From Sphingobacteriaceae bacterium (lineage in GTDB: Bacteria; Bacillota; Sulfobacillia; Thermaerobacterales; RSA17): DNA of 42,124 nucleotides. The stretch is from positions 1-42,124 of the forward strand of contig DATGRI010000040.1 of NCBI GenBank assembly GCA_035303785.1, read 5' to 3'. The translations under genes were made by a program, and so were the position numbers. The notes under the pieces were generated by a model that was given only the letters and a program-made list of their open reading frames with translations, did no database searches and was not told where the DNA came from. This document shows positions 21,970 through 37,375 of the stretch, piece after piece (the stretch's first letter is position 1; every line of letters starts with the position of its first letter).

Positions 21970-24875
<2,906 letters not shown>

Positions 24876-24879
<4 letters not shown>

Positions 24880-25799
24880 GGATCCTGACCTCCCGGAACC
24901 GCCGCCACGATGGCGGCGAAGGAGTCGGCCTTCAGGCTGGCGCCGCCCACCAGGGCGCCGTCGATGTCGTCCCGGCCCAGGAATTGCCCTGCGTTTTCGG
25001 CGTTGACGCTGCCGCCGTACAAAATGCGCACCGCCCCGGCTACCGGGGCGCCCAGGCCTTGGGCCACCCGGGAGCGGATGAAGCCCGCAGCCGCCGCTGC
25101 ATCTTCGGGCCGGGCCGCCTGGCCGGTGCCGATGGCCCAGACGGGCTCGTAGGCGATGACCAGAGTGGACGCCGCCTCTTGGTCCAGATCCTGCAGGGCT
25201 GCCAGGGCCGCATCCACCTGGCGGCCGATGACCTCTTCGGTGCGTCCCGCCTCCCGCTCCGCCAAGGTCTCGCCCACGCACAGGATGGGCACCAGGCCCC
25301 CATCGTAGACGGCCTTCAACTTGCGGGCCACCATTTCATCGTCCTCGCCGAAGATGTGGCGCCGCTCCGAATGGCCGATGATGACGTACCGGCAGCCCAA
25401 AGCCCGCAGCATGGGCACCGACACCTCGCCGGTGAAGGCACCCGACGTCTCCCAGTGGGCGTTTTGGGCTCCCAGGCGCACCCCCGGCCAGTCCCGGCCG
25501 GCCGCGGCCCCCGCCGGGGCGCCGTCCTCGCCGGGGGCAGGGCCGCCGGCGCCGTCGCCGCCGGATCCTTCCCCGCCGGCCGCCGACTCGATGGCCCCGT
25601 AGTGGCCTACGGGCCCGTGGGCGGCCCCGGGCAGCAGGACCGACGAGACGGCTGCCAGGGAGGTGAAGGGCGGGCAAAGGAGCACTTCGCAATTTTCGTG
25701 GGTGCCCACCGCCGTGACGATGGCCTTGGCCAGCACGGCGGCCTCGGTATGGGTCAAATTCATCTTCCAGTTGGCGGCTATCAAGGGGATGCGGCTCAC
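24876..25799 (-). CDS. tpiA: Triosephosphate isomerase with Gly/Ala-rich insert
   Basis: 307 residues from the GTG at 25799-25797, overlapping the pgk stop as GTGA, with AAAGGAGG upstream. The usual length is about 250. Active-site elements are intact: Lys12 in AANWKMN, His in YVIIGHSERR, Glu in VIAYEPVWAIGTG and the phosphate loop ILYGGSVNAEN. The extra length is a Gly/Ala/Pro-rich stretch at residues about 57-104 (25631-25488), between CPPFTSLAAV and VRLGAQNAHWE. That point corresponds to the surface loop after strand 2 of the barrel, so folding is probably preserved. Third gene of gap-pgk-tpiA-gpmI-eno. Confidence 0.95.
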
Positions 25800-27007
25800 C
25801 CTTCTCCCGCCTCCTTTACGGCCAAAACTTCCACCCCGGGCAGGGACCGGCCTTCGATGTATTCCAAAGTGGCGCCCCCGCCGGTGCTGATATGGTCGAT
25901 GGCGTCGGCCACCCCGGCCTGGACCACCGCCGCCGCCGAGTCGCCGCCGCCCACCACCACCACGGCGTCCTCCAAATGAGCCAAGGTGCGGGCCACGGCC
26001 ACGGTGCCCTCGGCAAAGGCCGGCCATTCGAACACGCCCAGGGGGCCGTTCCAGAACACCGTCTTGGCTTCGGCCAGAGCCTCGCCGAAGGCGGCCACCG
26101 TTTCCGGCCCCACGTCCAGGGCCTGCCAGCCGTCGGGCACTTCCCCGGCGGGGCAAACCTGCTTGTCCGCGTCGGGGGCGAAGGCCGAGGCCGCCACCAG
26201 GTCTGTGGGCAGCAGGAAGCGGCAGCCCCGCTGGGCGGCCGCCGCCATGATGGCGCGGGCCTCCTCCAGCCGGTCGGCTTCCACCAGAGAATCCCCCATG
26301 CTGCCCCCTTGGGCGGCCAGGAAGGTGTTGGCCATGCCGCCGCCTACGGCGATGCCGTCGCATACCTGGACCAGGGCCTGGAGCACCCCCAGCTTGTCCC
26401 CCACCTTGGCGCCGCCGATGATGGCCCAGAAGGGACGCTGGGGGTCGGACAACAGGCGATCCAGCACCTCCAGCTCCCTGGCCATGAGCAGACCCGCCAC
26501 GGCGGGCAGGAACCTGGCCACGACGGCGGTGGAGGCATGAGCCCGGTGGGCCGTGCCGAAAGCGTCGTTGACATAAAGGGACCCAAGAGCGGCCAGCTCT
26601 TGGGCCAATTCCGGCGAGCCTTCTTCTTCCCGGGGATCGAAGCGGAGGTTCTCCAGCAGCAGGATGCCGCCCGGAGGCAGCTGGGCAACGGCTTCGGCCA
26701 CCTGGGGCCCCACCACCTGGTCCACCTTGACTACGGGCCAGCCCGTAAGCTCCTCCAGGCGCCGGGCCACAGGGTCCAGGCGCAGTTCTTCCTTGGCCTG
26801 GCCCTTGGGGCGGCCTAAATGGGTCATGAGAATGAGGCGGCAGCCCCGCTCCCGCAGGTAATTCAAAGTAGGCAGGGAGGCCCGGATGCGGGTGTCGTCG
26901 GCCACCCGGCCGTCATCCAGGGGCACGTTGAAGTCCACCCGGACCAGCACCGTCTGCCCGGACACGTCTACGTCGTGAATTGTCTTGCGTGGAAGCACTT
27001 GCATCAC
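25796..27007 (-). CDS. pgk: Phosphoglycerate kinase
   Basis: 403 residues counting from the GTG at 27007; the next codon is ATG (27004). No good ribosome binding site precedes either, and only 9 bases separate it from the gap stop, so translation may be coupled to gap. Key regions: VLVRVDFNVPLDDGRVADDTRI, LILMTHLGRPKG, the nucleotide-binding AIIGGAKVGDKLGVL, and the C-terminal VVGGGDSAAAV and HISTGGGATLEYIEG. It makes ATP from 1,3-bisphosphoglycerate. It overlaps tpiA by 4 bases. Confidence 0.97.
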   Translation of the reverse strand: MMQVLPRKTIHDVDVSGQTVLVRVDFNVPLDDGRVADDTRIRASLPTLNYLRERGCRLILMTHLGRPKGQAKEELRLDPVARRLEELTGWPVVKVDQVVGPQVAEAVAQLPPGGILLLENLRFDPREEEGSPELAQELAALGSLYVNDAFGTAHRAHASTAVVARFLPAVAGLLMARELEVLDRLLSDPQRPFWAIIGGAKVGDKLGVLQALVQVCDGIAVGGGMANTFLAAQGGSMGDSLVEADRLEEARAIMAAAAQRGCRFLLPTDLVAASAFAPDADKQVCPAGEVPDGWQALDVGPETVAAFGEALAEAKTVFWNGPLGVFEWPAFAEGTVAVARTLAHLEDAVVVVGGGDSAAAVVQAGVADAIDHISTGGGATLEYIEGRSLPGVEVLAVKEAGEG

Positions 27008-27016
27008 CGGTTCGGG

Positions 27017-28057
<1,041 letters not shown>

Positions 28058-28090: not shown

Positions 28091-28957
28091 CTAGGGGGAC
28101 TGACGGGAGGGTTCCCCGGCTTCGGCCTGCTCCTGGCCCGGGCCGACCACCAGGCGCTTGGCGGTAATGTCCACCGACAGGATGTTGAGGGCGGTCATGT
28201 GCTCCAGATCGGCGGCCACCTTGGCCTGGGCCCGCTGCAGCATGGGCACGATGGGCGTTCCGTAGACGATGCTCACATCCATCTGCACCCGGACCCCTTC
28301 GTCCAAGTTGGTGACCCGGGTGCGGACGACCCCTTCGATGCCGGGGATCGTCTTGGCAGCGTACTCGGCGATGGACCGGATGACGTTCTCCTCAATGAAG
28401 AACCGGCCGAAGGAACTGAAGGTAGGCTGCACCGTAGACTTTTCGATGACCAGAGGCTCCCCCGCCCGGCGCCGGGACCGGTAGAGGAAGCGGATGGGGT
28501 CGATCAACTGGCCGGAGAAGCTGCGCTTCACTTCTACGGTAGGGGCGGGAATGACGTGCTTGCCCTGCCGGCGCCGGATGCGCCGGGCCTGGCGGATTTC
28601 CTCGGGGCTGGCGATATCCTCGATGTTCAGGTACCGGGCGGGCCGGGGCAGGTCCAGGGCATCGCAGATGCGGTGGACCATTTCCTTGGATGTGCCCAGG
28701 ATCAAAAGGCGGGTGGGCTGGAGTTGGTCCAGGGCTTCCCGCACCATGCGGCGATGTTCGGGATCGGCGAAGATGGCCCGGCGCACCGCCGCCACCCGGG
28801 TGGCCTCCCGCTTGGCGGAGATCCCCGCCAGGATGCGGCTGCCCCGGATGAGGAGGCCGTCGTCGATGATGCCCGACACGTCGTATTCGTGGGCGATGAT
28901 GGTGGCCCGGTGGCTCTTGCCGGTGCCGGCGGGCCCCACCAAGGCGATTACTTCCAT
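28091..28957 (-). CDS. P-loop ATPase fused to an Asp23/Gls24-like domain
   Basis: 288 residues, ATG at 28957, 8 bases after GGGGAG. The N-terminus VIALVGPAGTGKSHRATIIA is a Walker A motif (residues 8-15), followed by DDGLLIRGSRILAG and RLLILGTSKEMVHRI, consistent with a small kinase or ATPase-like fold of about 120 residues. A basic linker (RRIRRRQGKHVIPAP) leads to a C-terminal part, FGRFFIEENVIRSIAEYAAKTIPGIEGV and VRVQMDVSIVYG, resembling the Asp23/Gls24 envelope-stress family. No signal peptide or membrane helix, so likely cytoplasmic. Function unknown; substrate not inferable. It lies between hemL (24-base gap) and gap. Confidence 0.7.
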   Translation of the reverse strand: MEVIALVGPAGTGKSHRATIIAHEYDVSGIIDDGLLIRGSRILAGISAKREATRVAAVRRAIFADPEHRRMVREALDQLQPTRLLILGTSKEMVHRICDALDLPRPARYLNIEDIASPEEIRQARRIRRRQGKHVIPAPTVEVKRSFSGQLIDPIRFLYRSRRRAGEPLVIEKSTVQPTFSSFGRFFIEENVIRSIAEYAAKTIPGIEGVVRTRVTNLDEGVRVQMDVSIVYGTPIVPMLQRAQAKVAADLEHMTALNILSVDITAKRLVVGPGQEQAEAGEPSRQSP

Positions 28958-28981: not shown

Positions 28982-30289
28982 CTACCCCCGGTTTTCACCC
29001 CAACGCCGCAAATCGCCGGCGGCTTGGGCGGCGGCGGCGATGGTGGCCTGGATGGCCGCCTCGTCGTGGGCGGCGGAGACAAACATGGCCTCGAACTGGG
29101 ACGGCGGCAGGTAGACTCCCCGGGCCAGCATGGCCCGGAAGAAGACACCGTAGGCTTCGGTGTCGGCCTTTTGGGCGTCTGCCAGGTTGCCCACCGGCTC
29201 CTGGGTGAAAAAGACCGTGAGCATGGAGCCCATTTGCTGCACGTGATGGGGGACGCCGGCATCGGCCAGGGCCGAGCGCAGGCCCTCGGCCAGGCGGGCG
29301 GCGGCCCCCGCCAGATTGTCGTAAAAGCCGGGCGCCCGCAGTTGGTTCAAGGCGGCCAGGCCCGCCCGGACGGCCAAGGGATTGCCCGCCAGGGTGCCGG
29401 CCTGGTACACCGGCCCCGCCGGGGCGATCTTGCCCATGATTTCCGCCGGGCCGCCGTAGGCCCCCACGGGCAGGCCGCCCCCCAGCACCTTGCCCAGGCA
29501 GGTCAGGTCGGGCCGGATGCCGTACAGGCCCTGGGCTCCCGACCAGCCTACCCGGAAGCCCGTTATCACCTCATCGAAGATGAGCAGGGCTCCGTGGCGC
29601 CGGGTGATGTCCCGCAGGCCCGCCAAAAAGCCGGGCTTGGGCGGCACCAGGCCCATGTTGCCCGCCACCGGCTCCACGATGACGGCCGCCAGACTGTCGC
29701 CCCGCTCCCGGAACAATTGCTCCACGGCGTCCAAGTCGTTGTAGGGCAGTACGTAGGTGTCCCGGGCCGCGGCGGCGGGCACGCCGGGAGTGCCCGGTAT
29801 GCCGTGGGTGAGCACCCCCGAGCCGGCGGCGGCCAGGAGGCTGTCGGCGTGGCCGTGGTAGCAGCCGGCGAACTTGACGATGCCGTCCCGCCCGGTGTGG
29901 GCCCGGGCCAGGCGGAGGACGCTCATGGTGGCCTCGGTGCCGGAACTGACCAGGCGCACCTGCTCCACCGCCGGCAGGGCCTCCACCACCAACTGGGCCA
30001 GTTCCACTTCCCAGCGGGTGGCGGTGCCGAAGCCCGTGCCGTCGGCCAGGGTCTCGGTCAAGGCGGCCATGACGGCCGGCGCCCTATGGCCCAAGATGAG
30101 GGCTCCCCAGGACATGACGTAATCGATATAGCGGTTGCCGTCTTCATCCCATAGGTAAGGGCCGTCTCCTCGGGCCATGAAGACGGGCTCGGCGGCTACC
30201 GCCTTCAAAGCCCGCACCGGGCTGTTGACGCCGCCGGGAATTACTCGCTGGGCTTCCTGGAACCAACGGGACGATTGGGGGAAGGCCAA
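28982..30289 (-). CDS. hemL: Glutamate-1-semialdehyde 2,1-aminomutase
   Basis: About 435 residues. The start is uncertain: GTG at 30304, ATG at 30295 and TTG at 30289 are all in frame; only the TTG has proper spacing (8 bases) from GGAGG, so it is chosen. The fold type I PLP enzyme shows RVIPGGVNSPVRALKAV, SSGTEATMSVLRLAR, FAGCYHGHAD, LIFDEVITGFRVG and the PLP lysine in CLGKVLGGGLPVGA. It makes 5-aminolevulinate for tetrapyrrole (heme, B12) synthesis. No other hem genes are nearby. It is divergent from lgt, with about 60 bases between the starts. Confidence 0.95.
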   Translation of the reverse strand: MAFPQSSRWFQEAQRVIPGGVNSPVRALKAVAAEPVFMARGDGPYLWDEDGNRYIDYVMSWGALILGHRAPAVMAALTETLADGTGFGTATRWEVELAQLVVEALPAVEQVRLVSSGTEATMSVLRLARAHTGRDGIVKFAGCYHGHADSLLAAAGSGVLTHGIPGTPGVPAAAARDTYVLPYNDLDAVEQLFRERGDSLAAVIVEPVAGNMGLVPPKPGFLAGLRDITRRHGALLIFDEVITGFRVGWSGAQGLYGIRPDLTCLGKVLGGGLPVGAYGGPAEIMGKIAPAGPVYQAGTLAGNPLAVRAGLAALNQLRAPGFYDNLAGAAARLAEGLRSALADAGVPHHVQQMGSMLTVFFTQEPVGNLADAQKADTEAYGVFFRAMLARGVYLPPSQFEAMFVSAAHDEAAIQATIAAAAQAAGDLRRWGENRG

Positions 30290-30348
30290 GACCATTACCT
30301 CCACTCCGCCGGCACCCCTGTGGTAAGATGCAGGCGGTGATCAAAGAC

Positions 30349-36025: not shown

Positions 36026-37375
36026 TTGTTTGAAAAAGTGTTGGTCGCCAACCGGGGCGAAATCGCGGTGCGGATCATCCGGGCGTGCCGGGAGCTGGGC
36101 ATCCGCACCGTAGCCGTTTTCTCCGAAGCCGATGTGGATTCCCTGCACGTGCACCTGGCCGATGAAGCCTACAACATCGGCCCCGCCATGGCCAGCGAGA
36201 GCTATTTGAAGGTGCCCGCCATCATCGAGGTGGCCGGCAAGGCGGGGGTGGACGCCATCCATCCCGGCTACGGCTTTTTGGCGGAAAATTCCCACTTCGC
36301 CGCCGTGTGCAATACGTGGGGCATCGTCTTCATCGGCCCCAGCCCCCACGCCATCGAGAGCATGGGCTACAAGTCGGTGGCCCGGGAACTGATGGCCAAG
36401 GCCGATGTGCCCGTCATTCCCGGCATGGCCGAACCCCTGGCCAACGACGAGGAGGCTGCCGCCATCGCCGAGGAGCTGGGCTACCCCGTGCTGGTGAAGG
36501 CAGTGGCCGGCGGCGGCGGCCGGGGCATCCGGGTGGCCGCCGACCCCGACTCCCTGGCCGAAAGCCTTGTCTCGGCCCGCCGGGAGGCCCTGGCCTCCTT
36601 CGGCAACGGGGATCTGTACCTGGAAAAGTACCTGGAGGATCCACACCACGTGGAAATTCAAATTCTGGCCGACGGCGAGGGCAACGTCATCCACCTGGGG
36701 GAGCGGGAATGCTCGGTCCAGCGGCGGCGGCAGAAAATCCTGGAGGAAGCCCCCTCGCCCATCCTCACCTCGGAATTGCGGGAACAGATGGCCCAGGCCG
36801 CCGTGCGGGCGGCCCAGGCCGTGGACTATACCGGCGCCGGCACCGTGGAGTTCCTGGTGGACCGCCACGGCAACTTCTACTTCTTGGAGATGAACACCCG
36901 CATCCAGGTGGAGCACCCCCTGACGGAGATGCTGACGGGCATCGACATCGTTAAGGAGCAGATCCGCATCGCCGCCGGCGAGCCCCTGGGGGTCAAACAG
37001 GAAGACGTCCGGTTCAACGGCTGGGCCATGGAGTGCCGTATTAATGCCGAAGACCCCGACAACCGCTTCATGCCCTCCCCCGGCACCATCACCGGCTACC
37101 GCGCTCCCGGCGGGCCGGGCGTCCGGGTGGACGAGGGCATCTACGCCGGCTACACGGTGCAGCCTTTCTATGATTCCCTGCTGTGCAAGATCGTCACCTG
37201 GGGCCAGGACCGGCAGGAGGCGGCGGCCCGCATGGACCGGGCCCTGTCGGAACTGCAGCTGACGGGCGTGAAGACCACGGCGGAACTCCACCGGCACATC
37301 CTGCGGCACCCTGATTTCCAGGCGGGCCGGGTCCATACCCGCTGGCTGGAAGAGAGCCTGCTGGCCTCGTCGTAA
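36026..37375 (+). CDS. accC: Biotin carboxylase (acetyl-CoA carboxylase subunit type)
   Basis: 449 residues from the TTG at 36026, about 8 bases after GAGGAGGAG; an ATG frame from 35993 adds 11 unrelated residues. The protein begins LFEKVLVANRGEIAVRIIRAC, the biotin carboxylase start. ATP-grasp features include VLVKAVAGGGGRGIRV, HHVEIQILADGEGNVIHLGERECSVQRR and FLEMNTRIQVEHPLTE. It carboxylates biotin on a carrier protein using ATP and bicarbonate. No biotin carrier (accB) or carboxyltransferase gene is in the window, so it could serve acetyl-CoA, pyruvate or another carboxylase. Confidence 0.93.
   Translation: MFEKVLVANRGEIAVRIIRACRELGIRTVAVFSEADVDSLHVHLADEAYNIGPAMASESYLKVPAIIEVAGKAGVDAIHPGYGFLAENSHFAAVCNTWGIVFIGPSPHAIESMGYKSVARELMAKADVPVIPGMAEPLANDEEAAAIAEELGYPVLVKAVAGGGGRGIRVAADPDSLAESLVSARREALASFGNGDLYLEKYLEDPHHVEIQILADGEGNVIHLGERECSVQRRRQKILEEAPSPILTSELREQMAQAAVRAAQAVDYTGAGTVEFLVDRHGNFYFLEMNTRIQVEHPLTEMLTGIDIVKEQIRIAAGEPLGVKQEDVRFNGWAMECRINAEDPDNRFMPSPGTITGYRAPGGPGVRVDEGIYAGYTVQPFYDSLLCKIVTWGQDRQEAAARMDRALSELQLTGVKTTAELHRHILRHPDFQAGRVHTRWLEESLLASS

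Follow-up and report, generated by a model that had tools for sequence, protein, structure and literature searches.

Asp23 proteins are common in the bacteria considered here. In Staphylococcus aureus, Asp23 assembles into filaments, is placed at the membrane by its anchor AmaP and has a role in envelope stress (PMC6954212), and in Bacillus subtilis the YqhY protein has been tied to acetyl-CoA carboxylase (PMC5437119). RapZ has a kinase-like N-terminal domain and forms a tetramer (PMC5737377). Here we describe a gene that lies in the window, by which we mean the whole 42,124-nucleotide stretch of DNA that was analysed. It encodes a single polypeptide in which an N-terminal P-loop domain precedes an Asp23 domain at the C-terminus; this architecture is secure. 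Equally secure is the conclusion that the product belongs to a conserved family of cytosolic P-loop proteins, so far undescribed, and is not a one-off fusion. Searches of open-licence PMC papers listed none that, as judged by title and the start of the abstract, describes a P-loop/Asp23 fusion family.

Architecture of the fusion protein

The positions of the gene, its neighbours and the segments of its product are collected in Table 1.

Table 1. Location in the window of the fusion gene, the segments of its product and the adjacent genes
Feature	Position	Strand	Basis or remark
hemL-like class-III aminotransferase	28982..30304	minus	Pfam PF00202; ends 24 nt upstream of fusion gene
P-loop/Asp23 fusion gene, 288 aa, ATG start	28091..28957	minus	ORF, Pfam and relatives
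P-loop domain, residues 1-130	28568..28957	minus	model of residues 1-167 alone, and conservation
Walker A GPAGTGKS, residues 8-15	28913..28936	minus	G8, G11, G13, K14, S15 invariant in 59/59
DDG motif, residues 32-34	28856..28864	minus	invariant in 59/59
GxSAK motif, residues 45-49	28811..28825	minus	G45, K49 invariant; S47 in 58/59
Basic linker, residues 131-171, conserved KHVIPAPTxEVKK	28445..28567	minus	H134, P137 invariant
Conserved join EKSxVxPTFSxxGxF, residues 172-188	28394..28444	minus	mean pairwise identity 0.59
Asp23 domain, residues 189-270	28148..28393	minus	Pfam and predicted fold
gap	27017..28024	minus	Pfam; starts 66 nt downstream of fusion gene
pgk, tpiA, gpmI, eno	21995..27007	minus	Pfam; after gap

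The C-terminus of the protein scored 39.3 bits with the Pfam Asp23 profile PF03780, for which the cut-off is 28, and the best stretch was residues 215-266. Together with the Walker A motif evident in the sequence and the Asp23 matches of 58 of 59 aligned sequences, this bears out the first-pass annotation, which had proposed a P-loop domain fused to an Asp23-like domain. The division that it proposed was about right, as our structure model places the P-loop domain at approximately residues 1-130 and the Asp23 fold at approximately 190-270, and two further features that it listed were also found: the linker is basic (12 K/R vs 2 D/E in residues 126-166), and no membrane anchor was seen, the highest 19-residue hydropathy being 1.08.

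In Pfam, the N-terminal half gave sub-threshold matches to the ABC family PF00005 (19 bits, cut-off 25) and the AAA family PF00004 (14.7 bits, cut-off 21.2); among 59 aligned sequences, 21 and 22 respectively matched these 2 profiles by an E-value criterion (E≤0.01). The same search gave no match to HPr kinase (PF07475) or IstB (PF01695), and no NCBIfam family scored above its cut-off. The idea of a defence system was rejected, there being no PADLOC match to the protein. The profile searches name the Asp23 half only, and none of them assigned the whole protein to a characterised family, the outcome that would have refuted the first-pass annotation. When solved relatives were sought by sequence, the whole profile returned only generic Walker A entries, and the Asp23 part returned no convincing match. 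Scanning the surroundings of the gene for promoters and terminators yielded no more candidates than shuffled sequences did.

Distribution of the family

We observed a member of the family in 60 of 61 genomes (its own and others from the family, order and class), at 45-58% identity and nearly always as one strong full-length match; in one genome, G027, the gene is in two pieces, and an extra weak match was present in four of the 61. The near-universal occurrence of full-length relatives and the Asp23 matches (E≤0.01) in 58 of 59 aligned sequences, one per family, indicate that the fusion is not a chance finding. In a sample of 398 genomes from the phylum, 188 gave a match, of which the 167 with E values of 5.4e-39 or better were taken as carriers and the 21 at 1.5e-8 or worse were left out, with none falling between; the carriers, mostly with a single, full-length copy, were counted by hand from tables, as were the 63 genomes without SpoIVA referred to below, and the total agrees with the tally. 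In about two fifths of the phylum genomes sampled there is thus a conserved gene that databases name after the domain in which it is least conserved.

In 50 genomes without the fusion gene, a profile of residues 1-165 detected no stand-alone N-terminal domain, apart from 2 weak hits (E 1e-4 to 5e-4). Ordinary Asp23 genes, on the other hand, coexist with the fusion gene, as PF03780 was matched more than once in each of 40 genomes, 20 of them carriers and 20 without the fusion. No viral relatives were found. A relative with 38% identity, in a Monoglobus pectinilyticus record, is annotated as "Asp23/Gls24 family envelope stress response protein". This 285-kb record (L209, NZ_OY725741.1) is labelled a plasmid, and it carries aconitase, Rex and aldolase genes in addition to the fusion-family gene; with such housekeeping-type genes, it may be a piece of chromosome. 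Its genes for Rex, ogg and fba were considered as family neighbours and rejected, since among 72 families Rex and ogg recur in f104 only and fba recurs nowhere.

Conservation along the protein

An alignment of 59 sequences, one per family, was used to locate the conserved portions of the protein; 9 loci with odd length from the called start were left out. Invariant in all 59 sequences were G8, G11, G13, K14, S15, D32, D33, G34, G45, K49 and A61, and also L85, S90, M93, L101, I112, A124, R128, H134, P137, P178 and G184. Thus GxxGxGKS and DDG are invariant and GxSAK is nearly so. No Walker B motif was identified with certainty, and E113/D114 are not conserved. Mean pairwise identity was 0.50 for residues 1-130, 0.53 for residues 131-160 and 0.59 for residues 172-188, vs 0.27 for the Asp23 domain, such that the N-terminal half, linker and join are about twice as conserved as the domain that follows. 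By these values the P-loop domain, the linker and the join make up the conserved core, and the name-giving Asp23 domain is the more variable portion.

Predicted fold and the possibility of a kinase

An AlphaFold2 model of the whole protein, built from two sequences (pLDDT 62.9), consists of a P-loop domain, a low-confidence stretch from residue 127 to 187, and an alpha-beta-beta-alpha-beta domain at residues 190-270. The modelled Asp23 part superimposes on the C-terminal domain of MamM, a cation transporter, with a Z score of 12.8 and 1.6 Å over 78 residues. More generally, the fold predicted for this part (window 28148-28393) is close to that of the C-terminal domain of the CDF cation transporters MamM, MamB and YiiP (Z 10-12.8).

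The VIA list for the whole model covered the Asp23 part only, and residues 1-167 were therefore folded alone, again from two sequences (pLDDT 69.5). The best Foldseek matches of this N-terminal model were CMP, gluconate and shikimate kinases, the best with E 6.7e-4 (4die) and with TM about 0.4 and large rmsd; adenylate kinases were among the best VIA matches, with a maximum Z of 6.3 and 3.9 Å over 114 residues, a value that falls below the VIA background, stated as Z 7-8 for models that match nothing clearly. From these models, the N-terminal domain is probably P-loop kinase-like in fold, with a weak likeness to nucleotide kinases. Neither of 2 specific parents that we considered was retained, as the local profile alignment with HPr kinase spans 34 columns, covering Walker A and the Asp pair only, and that with shikimate kinase spans 37 columns around Walker A only. 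A comparison with neighbouring DnaC proteins, to which we return below and which were also considered as a parent, gave one profile pair that spans 67 columns (probability 93) and is broken by a large gap following Walker A; in all 3 comparisons the agreement lies mainly near Walker A.

Could the fusion protein then belong to the P-loop kinases proper, of the shikimate, gluconate, CMP or adenylate kinase type, and phosphorylate small molecules or proteins, with Asp23 serving as a dimer module? The identity of the best structural matches points in this direction, as does the Asp pair located 18-19 residues after the Walker lysine, approximately the position of the Asp motif in the shikimate kinase sequences that we compared. 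However, Z scores under 8 may reflect merely a common arrangement, the Foldseek superpositions are poor by TM and rmsd, and the profile likeness to shikimate kinase does not extend past the Walker A region. We consider a true kinase unlikely.

Gene neighbourhood of the family

We surveyed the neighbours of the fusion gene at 120 loci from 72 families, with class assigned by locus code; one locus, L052, has no code and was counted in neither group, and another, L202, was dropped as a repeat genome. No neighbour was general across the survey. The dnaD gene lay within 5 genes in 40 of the 120 loci and 17 of the 72 families, in a sample that was not random, as 20 of the 38 added loci had been picked from families already linked to dnaD. 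In the first, less biased set of 82 loci from 68 families, dnaD was the most widespread neighbour, being no more than 4 genes away in 18 loci and 15 families. Outside the class of the window genome, no neighbour was commoner than dnaD: of 88 loci and 44 families, 39 and 16 respectively had it within 5 genes, and dnaC was usually adjacent to it, whereas in the class itself dnaD was that close in 1 of 31 loci, from f26, where a PhoU-type gene lies between the 2 genes. Ten neighbours were examined with Pfam: 7 were DnaB_2 (PF07261) or IstB (PF01695), 1 was a cell-wall hydrolase, and 2, from loci L071 and L084, gave no match.

The arrangement of the 2 genes varies. Directly downstream and on the same strand, dnaD was found in 5 families (f46, f90, f115, f138 and f156); for the f90 locus, L076, where the gene caller gave a single 384-aa frame and dnaC only, Pfam finds DnaB_2 in the ORF directly downstream. 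It is divergent in 9 families (f42, f52, f70, f72, f77, f81, f85, f86 and f153), with 121-254 bp of intergenic sequence at the measured loci where it is the immediate neighbour, and it is downstream on the opposite strand in f87 and f165. In 3 loci from related families (L084, L123 and L126, of f165, f130 and f146), the gene divergent to the fusion gene encodes a conserved product of some 150 aa, at the place where dnaD lies in sister families; the L084 copy matched nothing in Pfam. On a quick tree built from 82 sequences, no fewer than 4 changes are required to account for the dnaD linkage. By our estimate, chance linkage in a genome of 2,500 genes would be about 0.4% per locus; chance does not explain the association, and old gene order may.

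These observations raise the possibility that the fusion protein is a replication-initiation factor, an ATP-dependent helper or regulator of helicase loading by DnaD and DnaC that perhaps tethers this process through its Asp23 module. C. difficile is without dnaB, and DnaD has been proposed there to do both jobs (PMC12548448). The breadth of the linkage in both sets of loci, and the identification of sampled neighbours as dnaD by PF07261 and as dnaC by PF01695, would favor such a role, but the linkage is nearly lacking in the window's own class, divergent neighbours need not share function, and the changes on the tree are explicable by a few ancestral linkages. Also, PF07261 was undetected in 8 of 18 sampled carriers, the window genome included, vs 4 of 20 non-carriers, from which it follows that helicase loading via a recognisable DnaD cannot be the general role of the family. 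The window genome (98% complete) must therefore load its helicase by other means or have a very diverged DnaD. A dedicated replication factor is thus doubtful; nevertheless, the helicase-loading link is the best lead on the target process, in part of the phylum.

In the window, the fusion gene is followed by glycolytic genes (Table 1), and the first-pass annotation had taken this place ahead of a glycolytic operon as a hint of function. A related proposal, that the protein regulates glycolysis or the gap operon, draws on the fact that 17 of 31 loci of the class have gap or pgk no more than 5 genes away, downstream and on the same strand (gap in 16; pgk alone in L107). Yet neither gene was that close in any of the 88 loci outside the class, and at other loci of the same class the downstream place is taken by an rpoN-like gene (identified by eye), a PhoU-domain gene or a response-regulator gene. 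A response-regulator gene is directly downstream in 6 loci, L052 included, and a PhoU-type gene is within 3 genes in 6 loci, with Pfam checked for one of each type. The setting between hemL and gap is typical of the class and not of the fusion family; the hint is not supported, and a role in glycolytic regulation is very improbable.

A sporulation role can be dismissed as having a negligible chance of being correct: many carriers are spore-formers by the presence of SpoIVA (139 of 167), but SpoIVA, found in 335 of the 398 phylum genomes, is as common without the fusion gene (196 of 231; Fisher p 0.68) and is missing from 28 of the 167 carriers, including all ten sampled genomes of family f68 and all three of f99.

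A proposed nucleotide-gated switch

We tentatively propose that the fusion protein is a cytosolic nucleotide-gated switch or adaptor that works through an Asp23-type assembly. The N-terminal domain would bind ATP, with K14 and S15 serving for the phosphates and D32 and D33 for magnesium or substrate; the conserved linker would relay the nucleotide state to the Asp23 module; and that module may dimerise, or may join the ordinary Asp23 and AmaP-like proteins of the cell in an assembly. Such an action would resemble that of RapZ, in which a kinase-like N-terminal domain is joined to an oligomerising C-terminal domain. We infer this scheme from what is known of the behaviour of Asp23 and from the conservation of the linker and of residues of active-site type.

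In favor of a switch or adaptor we count the invariance of catalytic-type residues (59/59) and the conservation of linker and join (0.53 and 0.59, vs 0.50 for the P-loop domain), as well as the fact that the 2 halves are kept together (Asp23 in 58 of 59 relatives, no stand-alone N-terminal domain in 50 genomes). We also count the alpha-beta fold modelled for the Asp23 part, the ordinary Asp23 genes in 40 of 40 genomes, the filaments and AmaP binding of Asp23 in S. aureus, and the recurrent dnaD/dnaC neighbourhood outside the class. Counted against it are the uncertain Walker B, models built from two sequences, N-terminal fold matches that are weak (Z≤6.3), the fact that no gene neighbourhood holds family-wide, and the carriers (8 of 18) in which DnaD was undetected.

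A more specific version would combine this proposal with the neighbourhood data: a new P-loop enzyme family, recognisable by GxxGxGKS-x16-DDG-x10-GxSAK and the conserved HVIP linker, would use nucleotide turnover to drive an Asp23-type assembly and, in a large part of the phylum, would couple that assembly to replicative helicase loading. We regard this as improbable; if true, an envelope-type scaffold domain would have been put to work in chromosome replication. An ATP-type domain that is permanently fused to Asp23, and that is near universal in a whole class, offers in any case a handle on Asp23 function, and the nucleotide dependence of an Asp23 system is open to direct testing via a single lysine.

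Comparison with known systems

To the P-loop kinases (CMP, gluconate, shikimate and adenylate) the N-terminal domain of the fusion protein has a weak likeness in fold and in Asp spacing, but none of their sequence profiles matched it above cut-off. With the Asp23/Gls24 family (PF03780; S. aureus Asp23, B. subtilis YqhY and YloU) it shares an Asp23 domain that scores over the Pfam cut-off, whereas the known members are short, single-domain proteins and the fusion protein has 288 residues with a P-loop domain in front. In public annotation the 38% relative bears the name of the Asp23/Gls24 family, which refers to the least conserved domain of the protein. Judged by its sequence, then, the protein carries an Asp23 domain but is not a classical Asp23. 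A biotin-carboxylase-like ORF (recognized by eye, from its start) is located at window 36026-37375, 7 kb from the fusion gene; in view of the tie between YqhY and acetyl-CoA carboxylase, its proximity is probably a coincidence.

The profile of the Asp23 membrane anchor AmaP (NF033218) gave a weak match at residues 184-264 (E 0.0018, 18.1 bits), although this is far under the 55-bit cut-off and the fusion protein is without a membrane span. In RapZ/YvcJ the C-terminal domain is of a different type from the Asp23 domain seen here, and the RapZ profile was absent from the Pfam and NCBIfam matches up to E 10; yet the 2 proteins share a plan, a kinase-like N-terminal domain with a Walker A motif followed by an oligomerising C-terminal domain (for RapZ, PMC5737377).
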